Assembly (NCBI GenBank): GCA_003134785.1
Contig: PLCN01000016.1
Coordinates: 1 to 55,439 of the forward strand
Length of the DNA stretch: 55,439 bases
Source of the DNA: Spartobacteria bacterium
Lineage (GTDB): Bacteria > Verrucomicrobiota > Verrucomicrobiia > Chthoniobacterales > UBA10450
Direction of reading: 5' to 3'
Part shown: positions 22,038 through 36,307 of the stretch, piece after piece
Numbering within the stretch: the stretch's first letter is position 1
Layout: each line of letters starts with the position of its first letter
Made by a program: the position numbers and the translations under genes
The notes under the pieces: model-generated
What the model was told of the DNA's origin: nothing
The model's database searches: none
The model's input: the letters and a program-made list of their open reading frames with translations, nothing else

Positions 22038-23651
22038 TTACGGATTGTACACATTGTCGGAGGGCTGGCAGCCGTCGAACTCGACCGCGTTTAATTGATT
22101 TGTGCCAAAAACATTGCGGATGTAACGAGCGGAAAAATTTTCGCTGCCAGCCGGAATCTGAATGTAATTGTTAAAGGAATTTCTGACATAGACACCAAAG
22201 CCGGCATTTGGCAAAGGCACTCCATTGGTCGTGCTTGGCGCGTCGAGTAATTGCACACCGGGTCGACCTGGAGACACATTGTAAGGCACGGGGGAAGAAC
22301 TGGCACTAAGCCCAATCCAATTGCCAAAAAGCCCGTTCGACAGCTTCACAGTTTGTCCGTTCCTCGTCGCTGTCGTTTGGCCGACTTCGGCCAACACAAT
22401 GCCATGATTAGAATGTCCACCGGTCACGTTACGATTGATGATCGTTTCGCTTCCGCACTCGCTGGTTATTCCGCTTACCTGATTCCCAATAACTTTTAGC
22501 CCAGTAACATCCGTGCCCACTAGGTTAGACTCGACGTAGATGCGCGTGCAGGGAGCCGGAAATTCCTTGGTTCCGATCGCGATGCCGCCGAGCTTGTTCC
22601 CGGAGATGATATTGCCGCCGGAGGGTCCGCCGATGTCGTTGTAATCGCCTCCGTTGGCGATCAACACACCTAACTCACCGTTTCCCAAGGCGTCGGTGCC
22701 GGCGCGGTTCACCCCAATCATATTGGCGACTATGATATTGCCGTAGTTAGAGGGATGAAGAAGTTCTACGCCCGAGGACGCCATACCCGACAGGACGTTA
22801 CCGGGGCCGATAAAGTTCTCGCTTGCACCTGCGCCAAGAAAAATGCCGTCCGAATCGTTGCCGATGACCAGACTGCCGGTCGGGTCGGTGCCGATATTGT
22901 TGTTCTCAAACGCGTTGGTGAAGTATTTGGTACCGGACCAACCGCCTTCAATTGCTTCCCCGACTACGATTCCGTTGCTTACTCCAGCGACCGTATTTCC
23001 CCGAATAGTATTAAAGCTAGACTGAATACCGATTCCACGGCTACCTGGATGAGCGATTGTATTATGAATGTAGCCATTTGCGCTCTGCTGAAATCCCATC
23101 CAATTGTTCTGAATAAAATTGCCCTGTGACTCTTTGAAGATGGAAATCGCATTTGAGCTATAGTTATAGATCTGGAAACCGGCGATCGTCGTGCCTGCTG
23201 TCGCCGCACTGACTCCATGGACACCGGGGTTCCCTCCGCTAGTAGCAACCGATCCGTCGCTGTAGGGCGGGATGTTCGCTACGTCGCCAACTAGGGCGAA
23301 TGCGCTGTCGAAGCCATTAGCATTAACCTTGATCAGCGGCTGCCCCGCATAACCAGGCTGCGAAGTGGCGTCAAGAATCATGAGCCGCGCAATATAAAGC
23401 TGTTCGCTCAGGACAATCTCCGATTGTGGCGAGAGGTTTGGGATATCGAAGCGTATATAATTGACGTCAGCCCCATAATAATTCGCCTGAAAAACCGCCC
23501 AATTTAGCGTTCCGGGGGTCGTGCGGGAGGAGGCGGAGGAGGTGACGATAAAGGTTGCTGTTGTTTTGTAAGGATTGGCTGAAGCAATCGCAGCAATAAA
23601 GAAAGGAAGCAGAAACGTCCGCCAAGGATTTAGAACCACCATAATTTCCAT
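22038..23651 (-). CDS. Secreted right-handed parallel beta-helix protein
   Basis: 537 residues. Signal peptide about 1-25 (PWRTFLLPFFIAAIASAN). The body is a run of short Asn- and Gly-rich coils of the NosD/pectate-lyase-like type: NTIRGNTVAGVSNGI, NNIGTDPTGSLVIGNDSDGI, NFIGPGNVLSGM, NDIGGPSGGNIISGNKLGGI, VGTDVTGLKVIGNQVSGI. Repeats are at protein level, not exact DNA repeats. Such proteins are often cell-surface polysaccharide binding or degrading, but I see no clear catalytic residues. Start may be ATG 23651 or the in-frame ATG 23642, which has GGAA seven bases upstream. It sits between a methyltransferase gene and a broken glycosyltransferase gene. Confidence 0.82.
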   Translation of the reverse strand: MEIMVVLNPWRTFLLPFFIAAIASANPYKTTATFIVTSSASSRTTPGTLNWAVFQANYYGADVNYIRFDIPNLSPQSEIVLSEQLYIARLMILDATSQPGYAGQPLIKVNANGFDSAFALVGDVANIPPYSDGSVATSGGNPGVHGVSAATAGTTIAGFQIYNYSSNAISIFKESQGNFIQNNWMGFQQSANGYIHNTIAHPGSRGIGIQSSFNTIRGNTVAGVSNGIVVGEAIEGGWSGTKYFTNAFENNNIGTDPTGSLVIGNDSDGIFLGAGASENFIGPGNVLSGMASSGVELLHPSNYGNIIVANMIGVNRAGTDALGNGELGVLIANGGDYNDIGGPSGGNIISGNKLGGIAIGTKEFPAPCTRIYVESNLVGTDVTGLKVIGNQVSGITSECGSETIINRNVTGGHSNHGIVLAEVGQTTATRNGQTVKLSNGLFGNWIGLSASSSPVPYNVSPGRPGVQLLDAPSTTNGVPLPNAGFGVYVRNSFNNYIQIPAGSENFSARYIRNVFGTNQLNAVEFDGCQPSDNVYNP

Positions 23652-24350
23652 ACAGCACGAACCGAGCCAAGTATCTCGAGACCGTGGGCCGGGGGCTGTT
23701 GCTCGACCTCGTCCGTCCGATTGCGCTTCGCTCCCTTATCGCTTCGACTGCGGGATTGTTGAGGATGGGAATCAGAATAATGCCAACGCTCCGGGCTAGT
23801 GCCGCCATCGCCAAAAACGCGCTGGCCGTTGCGAGCCACCCTACCTTCAACCTCGGTACCAGCCCCCAGACGGCAGCGGCCAATCCCGCAGTGGCCAGAA
23901 AGATCAGAAAGCAATCGGTCATCACGATGTGCTCGAGGTAAAGGAGATCCCCTGAGAGAAATATTACTCCGGCAGGTAGGCAGGCAACCCAGGACCTTAC
24001 CTCCAAACGGCGCACGACCATAAAGATCATCAAACCGACGCTCAGTCCCATGACGTGTTGCACAGCGATGGTAAACCAAAGTTGATGAGAAATTGCGTGG
24101 AGGAGTCGCAGCAACATCGGATATCCCGCAGGCATCCAAAAGTCGCCGAACATCGGCATCGAATGCGCGCATATCGGGGGGAATCGTACGACATCATGAC
24201 TGCTGGAAAATAGGCAATCATGAGAATCACCTGCAGAAAAACCCCGGCGGCAAAAAGCAGTAACAATGGCGGGTAGTTGAAGTTCCGACGTGCCCATCGC
24301 GCCATGGAAGAAATAATTCCGGCGGGGGCGTGATTGATTGTCTCGTTCAT
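23640..24350 (-). pseudogene. Broken membrane glycosyltransferase (GT39/ArnT-like), frameshifted and truncated
   Basis: From ATG 24350 the frame encodes one membrane helix and MMSYDSPRYARI (to about 24161), typical of the first loop (Asp, Tyr) of polyprenyl-phosphate-dependent glycosyltransferases. Homology then continues in the -1 frame with MPMFGDFWMPAGYPMLLRLL, several helices and LSGDLLYLEHIVMTDCFLIF, the next conserved part of the family. A one-base loss near 24155-24165 explains this. The second frame runs out of family-like sequence at about 23750 and then overlaps the start of the beta-helix gene, so most of the protein (normally 450-600 residues) is gone. Confidence 0.8.
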
Positions 24351-24491
24351 CGAATCAGATGGGATTTGGTCGGCGCGATGAAGGAATGGCTGCCGAACAC
24401 GCTTGACGCAGTCCGGGATTCTATCCGCGTTAGAGAGACCACGCTACTGCCGCGCGCTTGCTTCCGCATTTGCTTCTCTTACGCTCCCCAA

Positions 24492-25322
24492 ATGTCCCCA
24501 CCGAAGATAAGCGCGCGCGTAAAAGACATTCTGGTTTGTCCCGAGTGTCGTGGTTCGCTTGGCGAGAAAGGCGATACGCTTGGTTGTCAAGGCTGTGCCC
24601 GCTCTTTCGCGATCAGCAATGCCGTTCCCGTTTTTCTGTCCCAACCACTCCAATTGGTCGCTCCGGACCACAGCAGCAATCCGATCGGACCTGAATACGA
24701 AGCCGTCTTGCGCGCCGGCAATGATTTCGTCTTGAATATTGGCGCGGGCGGGACCGCGCAGCGGTATCCGAATTGCATCGAGTTCGAGCACAAGATTTTC
24801 CGGCACACTGATGTCGTGGGCGACGCGCACCACCTTCCATTTCGCGAGGGGACGTTCGACCGTGTTTTTGCCTTCAATGTTTTCGAGCACCTGGCCGATC
24901 CCATGACCGCCGCGCAGGAAATTCACCGCGTCTTGAAGCCGGGCGGCGCGGTCGTCATTCACACCGCTTTTCTGCAGGCTCTACACGAGGAACCTCATCA
25001 CTTTTATAACGCGACTGAGTATGGCGTCCGCCGATGGTTCGCTCCTTTTGAAATCGAAGACTGCCGGGTCAGCGGCAATTTCGGTCCGGGCGTGATGCTG
25101 GCCTTCCTGATGTCAAACGTGCTGGAGACGGCGCGCTTGAGTGAAATGCCGTCGAAGCAGCGGGATCTCCTCAAGGCATCGAAGATCGGCGATTGGGCGG
25201 AGTTTTGGGGCAAGTGGGGCGAAACGCCTCCCGGCTTTGACGCTTTGCAATCGCTTCCCCAACCGATGCAAAAGCGAATCGCAGCCGGATTCGAGCTTAT
25301 CGCAAAAAAGTCCGGCGCGTAG
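24492..25322 (+). CDS. SAM-dependent methyltransferase with N-terminal Trm112-like zinc ribbon
   Basis: 276 residues from ATG 24492 (MSPPKISARVKDILVCPECR). I chose this start because the zinc ribbon begins at once; the frame is open further upstream without conserved sequence. Ribbon: CPEC and CQGC (about residues 15-37). Methyltransferase core: VLNIGAGGTAQRYPN (motif I), VGDAHHLPFREGTFDRVFAFNVFEHLADP (motifs II/III), ILHRVLKPGG-type sequence EIHRVLKPGGAVVIHTAF. The ribbon-plus-Methyltransf_11 order is common in glycan and lipid clusters. First of three same-strand genes ending with a GT fusion; 55 bp to the next. Acceptor unknown. Confidence 0.88.
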   Translation: MSPPKISARVKDILVCPECRGSLGEKGDTLGCQGCARSFAISNAVPVFLSQPLQLVAPDHSSNPIGPEYEAVLRAGNDFVLNIGAGGTAQRYPNCIEFEHKIFRHTDVVGDAHHLPFREGTFDRVFAFNVFEHLADPMTAAQEIHRVLKPGGAVVIHTAFLQALHEEPHHFYNATEYGVRRWFAPFEIEDCRVSGNFGPGVMLAFLMSNVLETARLSEMPSKQRDLLKASKIGDWAEFWGKWGETPPGFDALQSLPQPMQKRIAAGFELIAKKSGA

Positions 25323-25377: not shown

Positions 25378-26586
25378 ATGCAGTCCGTCGGCGAATCGAA
25401 ACCATCTCCGCCCCCGCGAAACGCGCAGTTCTCGAAGAAATTTCATTTCTGGCTGGACGAACCGACGGATTGGAGCCAAAGCGTGCGCCACCTTCGGCTC
25501 TCGGGCTGGTGCGTGGCAAAGAGCGGCCCGCCGCTTACCGGAATTCGCGCGCGCCTGCGCGGCCGCACCTTTGAGGGGCAATTCGATCGAGAGCGGCTCG
25601 AGGTCGCGGCCTATACCGGAGTGCCGGATGCCCCGCGCTGGTGTGGATTTACCATTGACGTCGAGGTGCCGTTTGGAAAGGGCCGGCTCGAATTACAAGT
25701 AGCCTCTCCACACGGCCCCTGGCAAAAAATATTCGCCGCCGACGTGCGCGGGCCGCTCTTCCTGGAAGCGGAGGAACATAAGCGTTACCTGGAGAGGGTT
25801 CTCGCGGAGGCGCCGGGCCGCTATCATTTTTGGTTCGACCGTCCTGCCCATTGGGAGGAACCAACCTCCATCCTTTACATTATCGGGTGGTGCGTCGACC
25901 GGCGCGGCGAATGGATCCATGGAATTCGCGCACGCATCGGGTCGCAAAAATTCGAGGGCAAATTTGGTATCCCGCGGACGGATATTCCGGAAATGCATCC
26001 GGAGTTGCCGGCTGCCGCCCGCAGCGGTTTCGCCCTGGCCATTCCGCTCCCAAGAGGGAGCTCGAAAATTTTTCTCGAATTGAAAAGCGCGGACCGAAAA
26101 TGGCATCCTTTCTTCAGCCACCCCGTCGTAGGCGAGAAAGAGACGGACCACGGCGAATCCATTCCCGCGGGAGAAGAAGATCATTTTCTGTCCACGTCGC
26201 GTCCCGCACCGTTTGCGTTTTGGTGCGACCAACCTTTGGATTGGGAAAAGCCGGCCCACCATCTCCACATCTCGGGGTGGTGCGTGACCACGTACGGCGA
26301 GCCCATTATGGAATTACGTGCGCGCCTTGGGCGGCATATTTTCCCCGTAAGATACGGCATCCCGCGCCCAGAAATCGCTTTGGCGTTCGAAGGTCAACTG
26401 AGTGCCTTGCGGAGCGGATTTTCTGCGGAGGTGACGGTGCCGCGGTGCGGCGGCAAGTTTGTTCTGGAAGGCCGGAGTCGAAATGGTGTCTGGAAACAAA
26501 TTTTCTCGAGGCGCCTCGGAAACCGGATCTTTGCCCGGAAACGCGCTGGGACTTTGGCGCCGATCAGCCACTGCCATGAATTGTAG
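25378..26586 (+). CDS. Protein made of three copies of an unrecognised ~125-residue domain
   Basis: 402 residues from ATG 25378; no signal peptide and no catalytic motif I can name. Three repeats begin at about residues 22, 149 and 279. Each opens with an aromatic F/Y-x-F-W-x-D-x-P-x-x-W segment (FHFWLDEPTDW, YHFWFDRPAHW, FAFWCDQPLDW), and in each the motif GWCV starts exactly 21 residues later (43, 170, 300). Next come IRARxG and a central R-x-x-I/V segment, then SGF/CGF, and a closing W-K/H-x-F/I. The pattern suggests a beta-sandwich binding module. A fourth copy opens the next gene, 6 bp downstream, whose other domains are glycosyltransferases, so a glycan-binding or enzyme-docking role is inferred. 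No family name is offered. Confidence 0.85.
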   Translation: MQSVGESKPSPPPRNAQFSKKFHFWLDEPTDWSQSVRHLRLSGWCVAKSGPPLTGIRARLRGRTFEGQFDRERLEVAAYTGVPDAPRWCGFTIDVEVPFGKGRLELQVASPHGPWQKIFAADVRGPLFLEAEEHKRYLERVLAEAPGRYHFWFDRPAHWEEPTSILYIIGWCVDRRGEWIHGIRARIGSQKFEGKFGIPRTDIPEMHPELPAAARSGFALAIPLPRGSSKIFLELKSADRKWHPFFSHPVVGEKETDHGESIPAGEEDHFLSTSRPAPFAFWCDQPLDWEKPAHHLHISGWCVTTYGEPIMELRARLGRHIFPVRYGIPRPEIALAFEGQLSALRSGFSAEVTVPRCGGKFVLEGRSRNGVWKQIFSRRLGNRIFARKRAGTLAPISHCHEL

Positions 26587-26592
26587 CCAGCC

Positions 26593-29283
26593 GTGAAAAG
26601 CAATCTGATGGGAACCGCCGACGCGCCTCTCAATTCATCAAATCCGATGCCTGATTCCGCCGAAGAGTACATCTTTCGTTTCGACTCTCCTTTCGAGCCT
26701 GTGGTTTTTGGCGGTGACGTAGCGCTCCACGGCTGGCTTCTTCATCGCGAAGGAAAACCGACTCACGGAATCCGCGCGATCGTGAAACGACGGTTCCGCA
26801 AACGCCAGGAATTCCGTGCGCGCCGCAAACGGAATCGGCCCGAAATCGCCGCCGCTTTTCCGGAAATACCGGGGGCGATGACCAGCGGATTTCTCCTCGA
26901 ATTCCCGTTGGGGTTCGGCCGGAGCGATATCACTCTCGATGTTCTCGATCATGAACGGGTTTGGCGGACATTTCATTCCGCCAGCGCTCTGGCCTTCCCG
27001 CTCTCGTTCGCGACACGCCTTGGTCTTTCGAATCTCCGGCTCTTCCTTCTCTTTTATCTGAAACATGTTGTAACGCGCCTGGCCCCGCACCTGATCATCT
27101 CGCCAGCCGCGTGCCCCGTCCCCGCTCCTGTTTTGAATCAGTCTCAACTTGCGGTGGCGTCCCCCTCCCCGCTTCGGACGCGACATGTAAATCTCTTTGC
27201 CACGTCCAAATCCAATCTCTTCATTGTCGAAATTGGTGAATTGGTCGCGGCAGGATTCCGGGAAATGGGTTGCACCGCCGAGCTTCACCTCGATCAAGTC
27301 CCGGAAGAGACGCCAGCGAATGACACCCTTCAGATTATCGTTACGCCGCACGAGTACTATAATCTTTTCCTGAACGAAGTGTTTGACCGCCGCCGCGCCC
27401 GCCGGCTAACGCGGAATGCAATTCTCCTCTGTACCGAACAGCCTGAAACCCATTGGTTCGAGAGCAATTTATATTGGGGCAGCCATGCGCGTAGCGTTGC
27501 CGACATAAACACGCTGGGTGTTTTGGCTTACCGGAACCGCGGATTGCGCTGCGAGCTTTTGCATCTCGGTTATCACCCCATCCTCGCTCATCGCGAAAAT
27601 ACGCTTCACGGGGCGCGAAACATCGATCTCACTTTCCTCGGATCGCTCACTCCGCGGCGGGATCAGTTCTTCGCCGAAAACGCCGGCTTCTTTTCGCAAC
27701 ACCGCTGTCATCTTCGGCTGGTTCCACTCGGTTTCGCCAAGACCAAGCTGACCAAAAGCTACCTCAGCATCGAGCGACGGAACGAGCTGCTCAGCCAGAC
27801 AAAGATTCTGCTCAACGTCCACTACTCAGAGCAGAAGTACTTCGAATGGCATCGAATGCTGGTCGGCTTGGCCAACGGCTGCTGCATCATCACCGAGACT
27901 TGCAAGGGTTACGGCGCACTCGAGCCCGGCAAACATTTTATCATGGTGGAGCCGGAGTATCTCATCCCGTGCTGCGAGTATTACCTCGCTCATCCCGAAG
28001 AATGCGAGAAGATCGCCCGGCAGGGCCTTGAGTTTGTGCAGACAGAACTGCGTCAAGGCCAGGCCTGCCGCGCCTTCTTGCAGCAGGTCGACGCGAAGGC
28101 CGCTCCCGAACCGGAGCGCCTTGATCGAGTTAACAATGTGATGCCTACCGTTCTGCTGGACGATTCTCCGTCCCATCCCTTGCCTGCGGAATTGACGCGC
28201 CGGCTCTCCCAGCATACCGGCCGCTTGCTGGGTCGCGCGGCTGTCGGCGATTTACGAAATGTCTGGCAACGCCTTCGTAATTCGTTTGGACGCACCCGCG
28301 AGAAACCGGAGGCCAAATCGTTGTCCGAGAAAGAAGTCCGGCACGCCGTGATTGGAAAACGAAAGGAGTTTCACTCGCGATGGCTGAAGCAGGAACAAGC
28401 GCGAGAGAAAGGAGAATCGTTTTTCGAGGTGCATGAGAACGACGCTTTCGCGCGCTGCCACGAACCGAAACTCTCCGTCATTATCACTCTTTACAACTAC
28501 GCACGCTTCATCGAGGGCTGCGTGGCCAGCGTCAGCGATGCAGGACTGAAGTTTGCCGAAGCCCTCGAAGTTCTCATCGTCAATGATGCCTCCACCGACC
28601 ACTCCCTTGCGCAGGCCGTTCGCTGTACGAAAAAATTCAATCTTCCGATTCGCATCGTCGACAAGAAATGGAACACCGGCCTGGCGGACGCGCGAAATGT
28701 TGGCGTGCGCATGGCGCGGGCGCCGTATGTTTTTATCCTCGACGCCGACAACCTGGTTTATCCCGACGCATTCAGACAGCTTTTCGAGGTCATTTCGCAG
28801 GGAAATTATTCGGCCGCCTTTAGCCTGCTCTGCCGTTTTCGGGAAACGCCCGCGAATCCTGTCGGCCTACTTTCCTACTTCGACTGGGACCCGCAAATTC
28901 TGGTGCAGTATCCCTACATTGATGCGATGGCGATGTTCCGCCGCGAACCATTACTGGCGGGGCCTGGATACGACAATGAGCTAAATCAGATTGGGTGGTT
29001 CGGCTGGGAAGACTATGAAATGTGGCTCCGCTTCGCGCAGAATCATCACAAGGTTGCCTTCGTTCCAAATATCCTTTGTCTCTACCGGCATCACAGCACG
29101 TCGATGATCAACACGACCAATCTTTTCGAACTCGAGTTGGTCCACCACCTCATGGGCAAGTACGGTGATCTAGTCGAACGTTTTGAACCTCGCGAGCGTC
29201 TGTTCGGAGTCGAGCGCAGCAAGATTTTTCCGGCAAAGGAAGAACTTGCGACTGGCGCATTTCGGGACGGAAACGCGAGGTAG
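26593..29283 (+). CDS. Bifunctional glycosyltransferase (repeat domain - GT4-like - GT2)
   Basis: 896 residues from GTG 26593; ATG 26608 or 26647 are alternatives. Residues 26-150 are a fourth, more diverged copy of the domain repeated in the upstream gene (YIFRFDSP, GW 21 residues later, GIRAIV, TSGF). Residues about 205-515 form a GT-B-like domain with IDLTFLGSLTPRRDQF, EWHRMLVGLANGCCIITE and FIMVEPEYLIPCCEYYL, similar to CgeB/GT4-like spore or glycan transferases. Residues 626-860 are a GT2 domain: LSVIITLYNYARFIEG, VLIVNDASTDHS, ILDADN (DxD), WEDYEMWLRF. It likely adds two sugars to a cell-surface glycan. Six bases separate it from the repeat protein, so they are coupled. Confidence 0.9.
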   Translation: MKSNLMGTADAPLNSSNPMPDSAEEYIFRFDSPFEPVVFGGDVALHGWLLHREGKPTHGIRAIVKRRFRKRQEFRARRKRNRPEIAAAFPEIPGAMTSGFLLEFPLGFGRSDITLDVLDHERVWRTFHSASALAFPLSFATRLGLSNLRLFLLFYLKHVVTRLAPHLIISPAACPVPAPVLNQSQLAVASPSPLRTRHVNLFATSKSNLFIVEIGELVAAGFREMGCTAELHLDQVPEETPANDTLQIIVTPHEYYNLFLNEVFDRRRARRLTRNAILLCTEQPETHWFESNLYWGSHARSVADINTLGVLAYRNRGLRCELLHLGYHPILAHRENTLHGARNIDLTFLGSLTPRRDQFFAENAGFFSQHRCHLRLVPLGFAKTKLTKSYLSIERRNELLSQTKILLNVHYSEQKYFEWHRMLVGLANGCCIITETCKGYGALEPGKHFIMVEPEYLIPCCEYYLAHPEECEKIARQGLEFVQTELRQGQACRAFLQQVDAKAAPEPERLDRVNNVMPTVLLDDSPSHPLPAELTRRLSQHTGRLLGRAAVGDLRNVWQRLRNSFGRTREKPEAKSLSEKEVRHAVIGKRKEFHSRWLKQEQAREKGESFFEVHENDAFARCHEPKLSVIITLYNYARFIEGCVASVSDAGLKFAEALEVLIVNDASTDHSLAQAVRCTKKFNLPIRIVDKKWNTGLADARNVGVRMARAPYVFILDADNLVYPDAFRQLFEVISQGNYSAAFSLLCRFRETPANPVGLLSYFDWDPQILVQYPYIDAMAMFRREPLLAGPGYDNELNQIGWFGWEDYEMWLRFAQNHHKVAFVPNILCLYRHHSTSMINTTNLFELELVHHLMGKYGDLVERFEPRERLFGVERSKIFPAKEELATGAFRDGNAR

Positions 29284-32269: not shown

Positions 32270-35200
32270 TCAAGAGTTGCGCTGCGGTCGGGTGGAAGCG
32301 CGAATCTCCATGACTTCGTCGATTAACGCGCGAAACTCGGCGCCAAAGCGCTCGATTGTGAACTGCTTTTCGTAGGTCTCGCGGGCCTTTGCTCCAAGCT
32401 CCCACACCAGCGCCGGATCATCAATCAAGCGGCGAACAGCCGCTGCGAGAGCGTCGGGTGCTTCCGGCCTAACGAGCAGAGCATTTTGGCCATCCACCAA
32501 AACCTCATCCGCGCCGCCCACCGTCGTGGCGATGAGCGCTTTGCCGAGACTCATTGCTTCCAGGATCGTAACAGTCGGCATGGCTTCGTCGCGCGAAGCG
32601 GAAACAACCACATCAGCTTCTCTCATCAATTCGATTGCTCCGGCGTGATTGAGACCGCCCCAAAACGAAAAGTTCTTCAGCGTTGCCGCGACGGCTCCCA
32701 CCTTCTCCCAAAAATCCGGGTCAAGAACTCGTCCGCCTATTTCAAATCGCGCGGCCTCCTGGACATCGCGCGGGAGCAACGCCAGCGCCTGCACGAAAAT
32801 ATCCTGGCCTTTCCGTCGCTCGATGCCGCCGAGAAGAAGAAAGCGGAGAGGGCGGCGCTGTCCGGCCTCATCTTGATTCCGTTTCCAGCCAAGATCCGGG
32901 ATCGCATTCCTCAAGCACTTAACCGGACGATCGGTGAAGGGTCGATAGGCTGCGGCGGTCTGCTCTGATGGAGCAATAAACATGTCCGGGAGCGGGAAGG
33001 CGGCCCGCAGTCTCGGGTATACCCTGAGACAATGTTCGCCAGAAGACTTGGGCTCATGCAGCCACCAGGCAATCGGCACGTTCTCCTTTTGCATCGCGTG
33101 CACTACTTCCGCGCTCAAAATTGTATTCGCCACGATACAATCGAAATCCCGCGCGAATCTGGCGAACGATTCATCTTCCGTTTCAATCAGAGGGTCGATG
33201 ATGAGCGGAATTCCTTCGACGTTCAGTTTCTCGCTCAGCGGTCCATTTCTTGGCGCCATGACGAGCACGAAAATGCCGTTGTTCCGACACCAACGGGCGG
33301 CGTGAAATAGCATCATCGGCGCGCCCGACAGGGAAAGGTCGTGCGAAACGAAAAGCAGATCGGGCGCGGATCCAACCGCAGCCGGCTGATCGCGCGCGAT
33401 CATCCGGATCGGTGCGGGTGAATCAGAATAGAGCCAGTCACGCATGTTATCCGGGAAGTACGGATCGTGTGTGGCGTAGCGCGCCCAGCGTTTGAGCAAG
33501 TAGATCGATGCCTTATCCCGGCGCCGCGCGATTTCTTTTTCTTCCTCCACCGCGATCGAAACGTGACCGGCATGATTCAATGTCGCGTATGGCGTGTAGA
33601 CGCACCGCAGCCCCGCCTCGCGGATCTTGAAACAGAGATCAAGATCGGAGTGCGCGATCGGCGTGTTCACCGCATCGAATCCGCCGAGACGAAAGAAATC
33701 GTCACGTCGCATCGCGAGACAGGCAGCGGAGAGAGCGGCTACGTCGCGCAAAGATTGCGCCAGGTTAAAATGCTCGGTCGAATCCGCCGCGCGTTCGTGG
33801 AAGGCAGTTCCGGCCAGTCCCCGCACGCCCATGACCAGACCGGCGTGTTGGATTTTTCCGGTCTCATAAACGAGCTTCGAAGAGACCGCGCCCACCTCTG
33901 GGTTCTCAAGCGGCTCGATCACATTCTGGATCCAATCGGGCTGCGCTGGCTCCACGTCGTCATTGAAAAAAATCAGTCGCTCACCCGTCGCAGACTCCGC
34001 GCCCAGATTGCATTTGTCGGAGAAGTTGAACGGCTTGTCGTAAGGAACGAACCGCACGGTCGCGTTCTCCACCTCGAGACTCTTGAGCGATTCGATCAAC
34101 TGACTGTTCGTGACGATAACGATTTCCAAGTCGGGGTAATGCGTGTTGCGCGGCAAATCGCGCAGGCAGATCTGTGCGCGAGTGGGTGAGTCCGTGGGCA
34201 CGATCACCGAAACGCGCGGCCACGGCAAAACCAGGAGGCGCGCGCGATTTGCCGTCGGGTACTCGATGACCTCCGCTGGCAGATTGCGCCGGCGCATCGC
34301 GTCCGCCAGCGCGGCGAGATTTGATTTGCGCGCGTCCGGCTTGCCTCCCACCGAACTAGAGGCGGGATGTTCGCGCCAGTGATAAAGGACGTGCGGGATA
34401 TGATGAACGCGCCGCGCTCGCTCCGTGGCGCGCAGAGCGAAATCATAGTCTTGCGATAAATCGAACTCTTTCCGAAAACCCCCAATTTCATCGACGAGCG
34501 AACGCCGGTACGCCGTCAGGTGACCCATGTACATAAAAGAACAGAGGAGCTCCGGGCTCCATTCGGGCTTGAAAAAGGGCGCTCGCCGTTCGCCTTTCTC
34601 ACTCAGTCGATCTTCATCGCTGTAGAGAATATCCGCCTCCGGAAAGTCGCCGGTCGCGCGAGCCAGCTCGAAAAAGGCAAACGGAGCCAGCAGATCGTCG
34701 TGATCGGCCAGCGCGATGAAATCACCGGTTGCGAGTTGCAGGGCGCGGTTGGTGTTTTCCGCAATCCCGAGATTCGTTTCGAGCCGCGTCAGGCGGATTC
34801 TCGGTTCGCGCAAAATCCAATCTTGCAGCGTCGCCAAGGTTTCGGGTTGATCGGAGCCGCCATCGACCGCGCAAAGCTCCCAATTATCGTAGGTCTGCGC
34901 GCTGACCGAGGCGAACATCTCGCCCAGGAAGTGCGCGGGCGTGTTGAAAACGGGAACGAGCAAACTGATTTTCGGCCGAGCCTCGAGTTGTGATGAGGTG
35001 CGTCGCTGCTCTTCCAGCGCGGCCGCATTCCATTCGTGTTCGCTGATCCAGGTTGCATACCGGCTCGGTGGCTCGTTCGGGTTGACTGCCGGCGGTGGCT
35101 CCTCAGGCGGCGGAGCCTGCTTTGGCGCCCGGGAAATTCCGAGATTGCGCGGCAGACGCCGGATCTCGCGCAAGATCCTTTCGCCGAACGATCGGCGTAC

Positions 35201-36307
35201 TTTCGGACCGTTCGGAGCTTGGAAACATGCGCCGCCTTTCCGGCACGCCTTTTTCGCCGCATTCAAGATGCTCTTCTGCTCCTTGATCTGCGCTTTCAGT
35301 TGTGCCATCGCCGCTTTCTGCTTTTCGGCCTCAGCGGCCCATTGATTGAGCTGTTCATGCTGGCTGTCCATGACGAGCTGCGCTTTCGTGCGATCAGCCA
35401 GGAGCGCCTCGAATCGTTGTTGAAGATCGGCAATCACGCGCGCTTGATGGTCCATGATCTCCTGGACTTTCCAACGATCGGCCAGAAGCGAATCGAGCCA
35501 GACTTGCCGCGCTTCGAGCGCTGCTTGCGCGCGCACTGCTTCATCGAGCCGCGCTTGCGCCTCGATTCGTTTCGCGGCCAACCGGTACGCCACCACCAGT
35601 TCTTCAAGATCCTTCTTCCTCTCGAACAACTGCTTGAGTAACCCGGGAGCTCGTCGGGTTTCCCCCAGCGAGGTAATCCCCAGTCCGATTCCATCCGGGA
35701 ATTCCACCGCCGGTCGCGCACCGCTCCATTCCAGCCATGCGGCCTTCGGATTGTCCGCGCGCTCCAGGGTCGTGCCATGCACCAGGAGTAACCCGTTCGG
35801 GGAGAGTTTTGACTCCCAGATCGACAAGTCGGATCGAATCGCAGACCCGGCATCGCAGTCATCGAGCAAAAGCAGATCGACGCTGCTGTCGGCAAACTCC
35901 TTCGCGGCCTCCGCTGGTGATCCATCAAAAAAGCGGATCAGGTCGCCATAAAATTCCTGCCCGTACTCTTTGCCCTTGTGCCACGCTAAATCGTCCGCCT
36001 CTTTCTCACCGGCATGTTCCCGGCGGACGGCGGCGCAATGGCAGTCGATCTCCTGTTCGCGCGCAGTCTGGCAAAAGGTAAAACAAGCCTGACCGTCCCC
36101 AAAACCGAGCGTCACGATTGACTTCGGTTTCTGGCCAATCGCGAGGTCATGGAGCAAGGCCAGGTGAAAACGCGAGGGACCGCCGGTAAAAAATTTCGGC
36201 TGGAAACCAAGCAGGCTCGGAATTTTCTCTAACATCAAAAGCGCGTCGAAGCGGAACAAGAAGTTGAAAGGCGGCCATCGGCGATATCCGCGCTTGCGCG
36301 CTGACAT
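32270..36307 (-). CDS. Five-module fusion: methyltransferase-like, coiled coil, GT2, GT2, GT4
   Basis: 1345 residues. Residues about 40-225 form a class I methyltransferase-like (CmcI/Methyltransf_24 type) fold with IVTLGFGDGQACFTFCQ and VDLLLLDDCDAGSAIRSDL. About 225-350 is Ala/Gln/Glu/Leu-rich and predicted coiled coil (KDLEELVVAYRLAAKRIEAQ), then a Pro-rich linker (QAPPPEEPPPAVNPNEPP). GT2-A about 446-690: ISLLVPVFNTPAHFL, ADHDDL, YSDEDRLS, LSQDYDFALR. GT2-B about 697-950: VSVIVPTDSPTRAQ, FFNDDVEP, NTPIAHSDLDLCFKI. GT4 about 980-1335: LLFVSHDLSLSGAPMMLF, ERRKGQDIFVQAL, SRDEAMPTVTILEAMSLGK. The coiled coil may set polymer length or oligomerise it, by analogy with WbdD-WbdA; that is inference. 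Start ATG 36307. Confidence 0.9.
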   Translation of the reverse strand: MSARKRGYRRWPPFNFLFRFDALLMLEKIPSLLGFQPKFFTGGPSRFHLALLHDLAIGQKPKSIVTLGFGDGQACFTFCQTAREQEIDCHCAAVRREHAGEKEADDLAWHKGKEYGQEFYGDLIRFFDGSPAEAAKEFADSSVDLLLLDDCDAGSAIRSDLSIWESKLSPNGLLLVHGTTLERADNPKAAWLEWSGARPAVEFPDGIGLGITSLGETRRAPGLLKQLFERKKDLEELVVAYRLAAKRIEAQARLDEAVRAQAALEARQVWLDSLLADRWKVQEIMDHQARVIADLQQRFEALLADRTKAQLVMDSQHEQLNQWAAEAEKQKAAMAQLKAQIKEQKSILNAAKKACRKGGACFQAPNGPKVRRSFGERILREIRRLPRNLGISRAPKQAPPPEEPPPAVNPNEPPSRYATWISEHEWNAAALEEQRRTSSQLEARPKISLLVPVFNTPAHFLGEMFASVSAQTYDNWELCAVDGGSDQPETLATLQDWILREPRIRLTRLETNLGIAENTNRALQLATGDFIALADHDDLLAPFAFFELARATGDFPEADILYSDEDRLSEKGERRAPFFKPEWSPELLCSFMYMGHLTAYRRSLVDEIGGFRKEFDLSQDYDFALRATERARRVHHIPHVLYHWREHPASSSVGGKPDARKSNLAALADAMRRRNLPAEVIEYPTANRARLLVLPWPRVSVIVPTDSPTRAQICLRDLPRNTHYPDLEIVIVTNSQLIESLKSLEVENATVRFVPYDKPFNFSDKCNLGAESATGERLIFFNDDVEPAQPDWIQNVIEPLENPEVGAVSSKLVYETGKIQHAGLVMGVRGLAGTAFHERAADSTEHFNLAQSLRDVAALSAACLAMRRDDFFRLGGFDAVNTPIAHSDLDLCFKIREAGLRCVYTPYATLNHAGHVSIAVEEEKEIARRRDKASIYLLKRWARYATHDPYFPDNMRDWLYSDSPAPIRMIARDQPAAVGSAPDLLFVSHDLSLSGAPMMLFHAARWCRNNGIFVLVMAPRNGPLSEKLNVEGIPLIIDPLIETEDESFARFARDFDCIVANTILSAEVVHAMQKENVPIAWWLHEPKSSGEHCLRVYPRLRAAFPLPDMFIAPSEQTAAAYRPFTDRPVKCLRNAIPDLGWKRNQDEAGQRRPLRFLLLGGIERRKGQDIFVQALALLPRDVQEAARFEIGGRVLDPDFWEKVGAVAATLKNFSFWGGLNHAGAIELMREADVVVSASRDEAMPTVTILEAMSLGKALIATTVGGADEVLVDGQNALLVRPEAPDALAAAVRRLIDDPALVWELGAKARETYEKQFTIERFGAEFRALIDEVMEIRASTRPQRNS

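Follow-up and report, generated by a model that had tools for sequence, protein, structure and literature searches.

We analysed a 55,439-nucleotide contig of a Spartobacteria bacterium (PLCN01000016.1, assembly GCA_003134785.1), referred to here in its full length as the window, and focused on two adjacent, co-oriented genes, gene A and gene B, which share four copies of one protein domain. Gene A consists essentially of three of these copies, whereas gene B carries the fourth copy ahead of two glycosyltransferase modules of the families GT4 and GT2. The features of the locus are collected in Table 1.

Table 1 Features of the gene A/B locus. E-values of the domain copies refer to a hidden Markov model (HMM) that was built from copies 1 to 4 themselves, so that their scores are high by construction.
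Feature	Coordinates	Strand	Details
Class I S-adenosylmethionine (SAM)-dependent methyltransferase (MT) gene	24330..25322	+	upstream of gene A; Pfam Methyltransf_11, E 1e-15
Gene A, 402 aa	25378..26586	+	three domain copies, catalytic module absent
Domain copy 1	25441..25752	+	HMM E 9.2e-47
Domain copy 2	25822..26133	+	HMM E 5.0e-50
Domain copy 3	26212..26520	+	HMM E 1.6e-48
Putative deletion junction	26521..26592	+	~20-codon tail, stop, 6 bases, then start of gene B
Gene B, 896 aa, GTG start	26593..29283	+	6 bases past gene A stop; one domain copy, GT4-like (Glyco_trans_1_2, PF13524, E 4.6e-10), GT2 (PF00535, E 2.6e-25)
Domain copy 4, N-terminus of gene B	26668..26991	+	HMM E 3.1e-43
GT4 plus double GT2 gene, 964 aa	29371..32265	-	convergent, without domain copy

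A sequence-only reading of this locus had proposed three homologous copies in the 402-residue protein and a fourth one at the start of the 896-residue glycosyltransferase, with exactly 21 residues between an opening aromatic residue (F22, Y149 and F279; Y26 in gene B) and a GW motif. Translation and pairwise alignments confirmed both the copies and the spacing: the GW motifs are located at residues 43, 170 and 300 of the 402-residue protein and at residue 47 of the 896-residue protein, and all six pairs of copies scored above shuffled alignments (z 10 to 34), with none of 2000 shuffles per pair reaching the respective score. In an alignment of 39 copies from the window and from Chthoniobacterales and Verrucomicrobia records (alignment A3), the spacing is kept in all 39 and the first 23 columns are free of gaps, while in more distant copies (alignment A5) it is off by one to a few residues. 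Since the copies are homologous, the constant spacing is an ordinary consequence of this relationship. Some details of the earlier description had to be adjusted. The domain length of about 125 residues includes linkers and the fold itself spans ~105-110 residues; the three copies do fill the 402-residue protein, which in addition has a 21-residue head, linkers and a tail of ~20 residues. The motifs FW-D-P-W and GWCV hold for copies 1-3 but copy 4 reads FRFDSP and GWLL, and IRAR is exact in copies 1-2 but reads LRAR in copy 3 and IRAI in copy 4.

The searches retrieved no fitting Pfam family for the domain and no NCBIfam match to the 402-residue protein at E<=1, so the statement that it belongs to no named family stands within Pfam and, for this protein, within NCBIfam. 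Sequence searches of the PDB gave nothing credible (no hit in one search, a best E of 0.32 in the other), and no description of the domain was found in the literature by titles and abstract openings, a coverage that leaves out most subscription journals. The whole 402-residue protein reaches 25.1 bits against Thyroglobulin_1 (PF00086), above the curated cut-off of 20.6. We rejected this identity, as the best-scoring stretch, a GWCV-like one, matches just 18 of the 67 positions of the model and no single stretch passes the cut-off; taken singly, copies 2 and 3 gave E-values of 0.27 and 0.22, and copies 1 and 4 no match. This score is a likely source of false annotation. The bacterial Ig (immunoglobulin) domain Big_7 (PF17957) resembles the domain in a weak, non-significant match of one of 25 members (E 0.13), whereas the other 24 are without match at E<=1; its curated score was not reached, and the window proteins gave no match at E<=1.

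The fold of the domain was assessed on an AlphaFold model of copy 2 (25822-26151; 39 copies aligned), which is all-beta with eight strands and a mean predicted local distance difference test score (pLDDT) of 94.2. A fold search with this model returned seven of 1000 chains at Z>=8 with a best value of 8.8, the nearest folds being the C-terminal domain of sulfite dehydrogenase (Z 8.8 over 94 residues), an S-layer domain (8.6) and fibronectin type III (FnIII)-like modules of CbhA (8.6 over 87 residues). The sulfite dehydrogenase/oxidase domain and the CbhA modules share the sandwich topology, but their sequence identity is 10-12% and their function unrelated. The predicted domain thus has the two-sheet, all-beta architecture of ~100 residues that matches solved Ig/FnIII-like domains, which supports the earlier guess of a beta-sandwich; as Z values near 8 are moderate, we claim the fold class and no function. 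In a model of full-length gene B, copy 4 shows the same strand order, with pLDDT values of about 68-89 for the domain blocks.

In order to see where the domain occurs, we searched with models of increasing breadth. The four-copy model found three further copies in the genome of the window, on two other glycosyltransferases, and had matches in 20 of the 39 genomes in a set of relatives. A wider alignment matched at least 37 of 197 genomes of the order and at least 28 of 288 genomes of the phylum (Verrucomicrobiota), but none of 12 genomes from other groups chosen by transferase similarity, and a still wider one matched, weakly in each case, at least four of the 299 genomes from the phylum to which a Caballeronia genome belongs (Pseudomonadota). 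The genome of the window is itself counted in the relatives, order and Verrucomicrobiota tallies, and the counts for the order and for both phyla are lower bounds, because the best 16 to 24 candidates per genome were scored. No match to the 402-residue protein was found in plasmid and phage collections. The nearest named kin are metagenome-assembled genomes (MAGs) of Chthoniobacterales, Spartobacteria and other Verrucomicrobia, mostly from soil as judged from the record descriptions.

Among the frames scanned, the proteins carrying the domain are almost exclusively enzymes. In a Pfam scan of 30 distinct, hand-picked domain-bearing frames, 28 carried GT2, GT4, methyltransferase or NTP_transf_5 families, the two exceptions being the 402-residue protein of the window and its broken relative in genome G021. 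In the less selected phylum survey, with one best locus per genome, GT2 was present in all 10 frames scanned out of 17 loci; one of these frames also belongs to the genes of the 30-frame scan. A fusion contains one to three copies of the domain, which in most cases precede the catalytic part. In several relatives, domain-bearing genes are clustered, with nine genes in ~37 kb (G464), seven in ~41 kb (G347), seven in ~47 kb (G360) and five in ~13 kb (G236). These genes were counted after joining frames split at piece boundaries, and four of the nine in G464 and five of the seven in G347 were scanned with Pfam. In the clusters of G464 (L119-L120) and G347 (L121-L123), the domain occurs mostly in tandem pairs. 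Together with the modelled fold, these data indicate that the domain is real, unnamed, tied to glycosyltransferases and of a predicted Ig/FnIII-like beta-sandwich type.

Enzymes of the fused families work in the cytoplasm, with nucleotide sugars or SAM as substrates. The fusion to such enzymes, together with the absence of any signal-like or transmembrane stretch in the 402-residue protein (top 19-residue hydropathy 0.84), makes a secreted carbohydrate-binding module (CBM) working outside the cell highly improbable, even though a beta-sandwich fold would suit such a role and one weak relative in another phylum is, in our own reading, lipoprotein-like.

We then compared the gene A/B locus among relatives (loci L039-L045, L049, L057, L062, L063, L065, L090, L091 and L094; of the family's genomes with one match each, a part was included). 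Gene A was observed in 15 genomes of the window's family, and in 13 of these (G003, G008, G010, G015, G019, G022, G140, G166, G168, G178, G181, G184 and G195, each counted once) the tandem copies, two or three in number, continue into a double GT2 module, GT2-GT2, of ~570 residues. The contig ends inside this module in G015, G140 and G195; in the other ten genomes, gene B (one copy plus GT4 and GT2) directly follows, as a fusion in G022, in two frames in G168 and up to the end of the contig in G166. Copies 1-2 of G003 lie on another contig. An ortholog of the MT gene immediately precedes gene A in nine of the 13 genomes, and in G021 it lies ~2 kb away on the upstream side. None was found upstream of gene A in G140, G166 and G181, and the contig of G008 ends there. 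The two genomes without the module behind the copies are that of the window and G021, a MAG with a listed coverage of 1.5, in which the triple copies are in two frames and the GT2-GT2 module and gene B are on another contig. When copies 1, 2 and 3 of the window were compared with those of four relatives, the best match was the copy of the same number in all 12 cases, which identifies gene A as an ortholog of the three-copy double-GT2 enzymes. Since the double GT2 follows the copies in 13 of the 15 genomes and is missing here, the 402-residue protein appears, from these comparisons, to be a sugar-transferring enzyme that lost its catalytic half by deletion.

Comparison of DNA and translation revealed no GT2-GT2 remnant at the junction, and tblastn of three orthologous modules (one of them partial) against positions 26400-26700 gave a best E of 1.3. 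The genome of the window (97% complete, 25 contigs) contains, at E<=1e-20, paralogs of the module only and no ortholog. Its best match to the missing module is the 964-residue gene downstream of gene B (54%; 53% identity to the G019 module), and in our trees the four closest matches fall outside the clade of gene A. We rejected a move of the module into this neighbour, as the GT2-GT2 of the 964-residue gene groups with its own ortholog in G003 (L044 1342-4200; 100/100) outside that clade. Another GT2-GT2 gene of the genome (C24, 46% to the G003 module) branches apart from these, in one clade with genes from G019, G021 and G195 (100/100), and the weakest match (C4, 31%, partial) was left out of the trees. 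The lack of a remnant and the placement of the paralogs imply that the catalytic half was lost and not moved, unless it resides in the unassembled part of the genome. An assembly artefact, in which the organism has the double GT2 module and the assembly lost it, would find room in 25 contigs at 97% completeness and has a parallel in the split of triple copies and GT2-GT2 between contigs in the low-coverage G021; we consider it very unlikely, with the junction well within a 55-kb contig and only paralogs in the genome.

The G003 ortholog of the 964-residue gene has a longer GT2-GT2 branch (0.9 vs 0.27), and gene A of G003 keeps its own GT2-GT2. These branch lengths would fit a takeover of the lost step by the paralog in the window, in this one case.

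The deletion might have killed gene A, so that its 402 codons would be a young remnant that has just not decayed yet. The missing catalytic half and the arbitrary tail of ~20 codons are in line with this explanation, as are the presence of the A/B locus in two of eight genomes of the window's genus (G001, G002 and G004 were not fetched), which makes it look dispensable, and the fact that no other clean domain-only ortholog was found. On the other hand, the 402 codons contain neither a stop nor a frameshift, the tight spacing to gene B is retained, and the end branch of the triple region in the tree is similar to that of gene B (0.47 vs 0.48) and does not stand out against the other rows, which range from 0.08 to 0.95. 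Branch lengths and intact frame are compatible with a functional adaptor as well as with a young remnant, and we regard the latter as a possibility of somewhat less than even odds.

The sequence-only reading had taken a protein built only of this module as a purpose-built docking or glycan-binding scaffold. Because the orthologs in 13 of 15 genomes are enzymes that run into a double GT2, this view is not supported, and we consider a dedicated non-catalytic scaffold or docking protein unlikely, although the protein is multivalent and co-oriented with a transferase bearing one more copy. A possible second non-catalytic case is a 242-residue protein of G335 (L145 3830-4555, - strand), which combines a coiled-coil-like part with the domain, lacks a transferase and is encoded between a domain-bearing glycosyltransferase and a methyltransferase-like frame inside a 763-kb contig. 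However, this protein may be a trimmed glycosyltransferase too, since a glycosyltransferase of another genome (L113) has coiled-coil-type Pfam matches before its domain. Two further candidates for domain-only frames were rejected: the 295-residue frame of G344 ends at an in-frame stop with the glycosyltransferase part still following, and the frame of G065, 162 residues long when counted from its start, precedes a methyltransferase-like frame, a frameshift being the probable cause. The stop in G344 (L147 5020-7542) interrupts a two-copy glycosyltransferase gene after the copies, in a single-contig assembly.

Where many enzymes of a single cytoplasmic glycan pathway carry a sandwich module, a binding task common to them is the best explanation. 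We thus favour, with a probability of roughly 0.6, the reading that the domain is an Ig/FnIII-like accessory domain of cytoplasmic glycan-assembly enzymes that serves such shared binding, and that gene A of the window is one of these enzymes minus its catalytic half. Most likely, the domain tethers the enzymes of a pathway to a common glycan acceptor or to one another: it would bind something that they share, either the lipid-linked growing glycan or each other, which would let them work on the same chain. The three copies left without catalytic part in the window would persist at most as a multivalent partner to which the gene B enzyme binds, and the trimmed gene A product could still bind the acceptor or the product of gene B. 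The double-GT2 step would then be missing, or a paralog, for example the 964-residue neighbour, would carry it out. A more specific version, in which the domain is a shared docking tag that brings many enzymes of a glycan cluster together in a cytoplasmic assembly line and the trimmed gene A product of this lineage is a three-valent, non-catalytic adaptor recruiting the gene B transferase and the paralogous double-GT2 enzyme, seems doubtful to us.

Several points weigh against the favoured reading. The fold of the domain does not by itself reveal a function. Its nearest match, the domain of sulfite dehydrogenase, has an unrelated role, and Z values near 8 are common for such sandwiches. The placement of the domains relative to each other in the gene B model is unreliable (predicted template modelling score 0.46). 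Moreover, the A/B locus was not seen in six of the eight genomes of the window's own genus, and many of the relatives are fragmented MAGs. Finally, while three of the four weak Pseudomonadota relatives sit on a putative methyltransferase and two membrane sugar-transferases, the fourth sits on a non-enzyme, lipoprotein-like protein, all four being read without a family scan.

Accessory sandwich domains on glycosyltransferases are not without precedent. According to the report on TarS (PLoS Pathog 2016, PMC5156392), this polymer glycosyltransferase carries tandem C-terminal Ig-like (CBM-like) trimerization domains, for which binding of the teichoic acid polymer and a contribution to processivity were suggested; kcat/Km was similar in their absence. 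The likeness lies in tandem Ig-like sandwiches on a polymer glycosyltransferase; the domains of TarS are, however, C-terminal and on one enzyme, whereas those described here are usually N-terminal and on many enzymes of a cluster. TarS appeared neither in the PDB sequence searches nor among the 50 fold matches listed, an absence that excludes nothing. In the dimeric glycosyltransferase POMGNT2, an FnIII-like domain helps to form the acceptor site, as stated in the respective report (PMC13411425). This case shares an FnIII-like module on a glycosyltransferase, but is eukaryotic, luminal, C-terminal and single-copy, and is likened here without a demonstrated sequence relation. We regard the domain as a new family of a known kind, the Ig-like accessory domains of glycosyltransferases, and its spread over many enzymes of a cluster is unusual.

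Although no Pfam entry fits it, the domain is a marker of a whole set of polysaccharide enzymes in Verrucomicrobiota, with up to nine genes per cluster, and a name for it would make such clusters easier to recognise and to delimit. Its ligand would tell in what way glycans are assembled by a large number of separate transferases, and the deletion form in the window represents a natural experiment that parts the binding from the catalytic portion.

Two further genes of the window lie close to the locus, both on the - strand. The gene at 32270-36307 encodes a 1345-residue protein with an N-terminal part related to the adjacent Methyltransf_24 gene, followed by a double GT2 and then a GT4; locus L062 has a GT2-GT2 related to that of this protein (tree 100/100), with its GT4 split over two frames. 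The gene at 22038-23651 encodes a 537-residue protein with no Pfam match at E<=0.001, homologs of which are located upstream of the locus in G019, G003 and G195.

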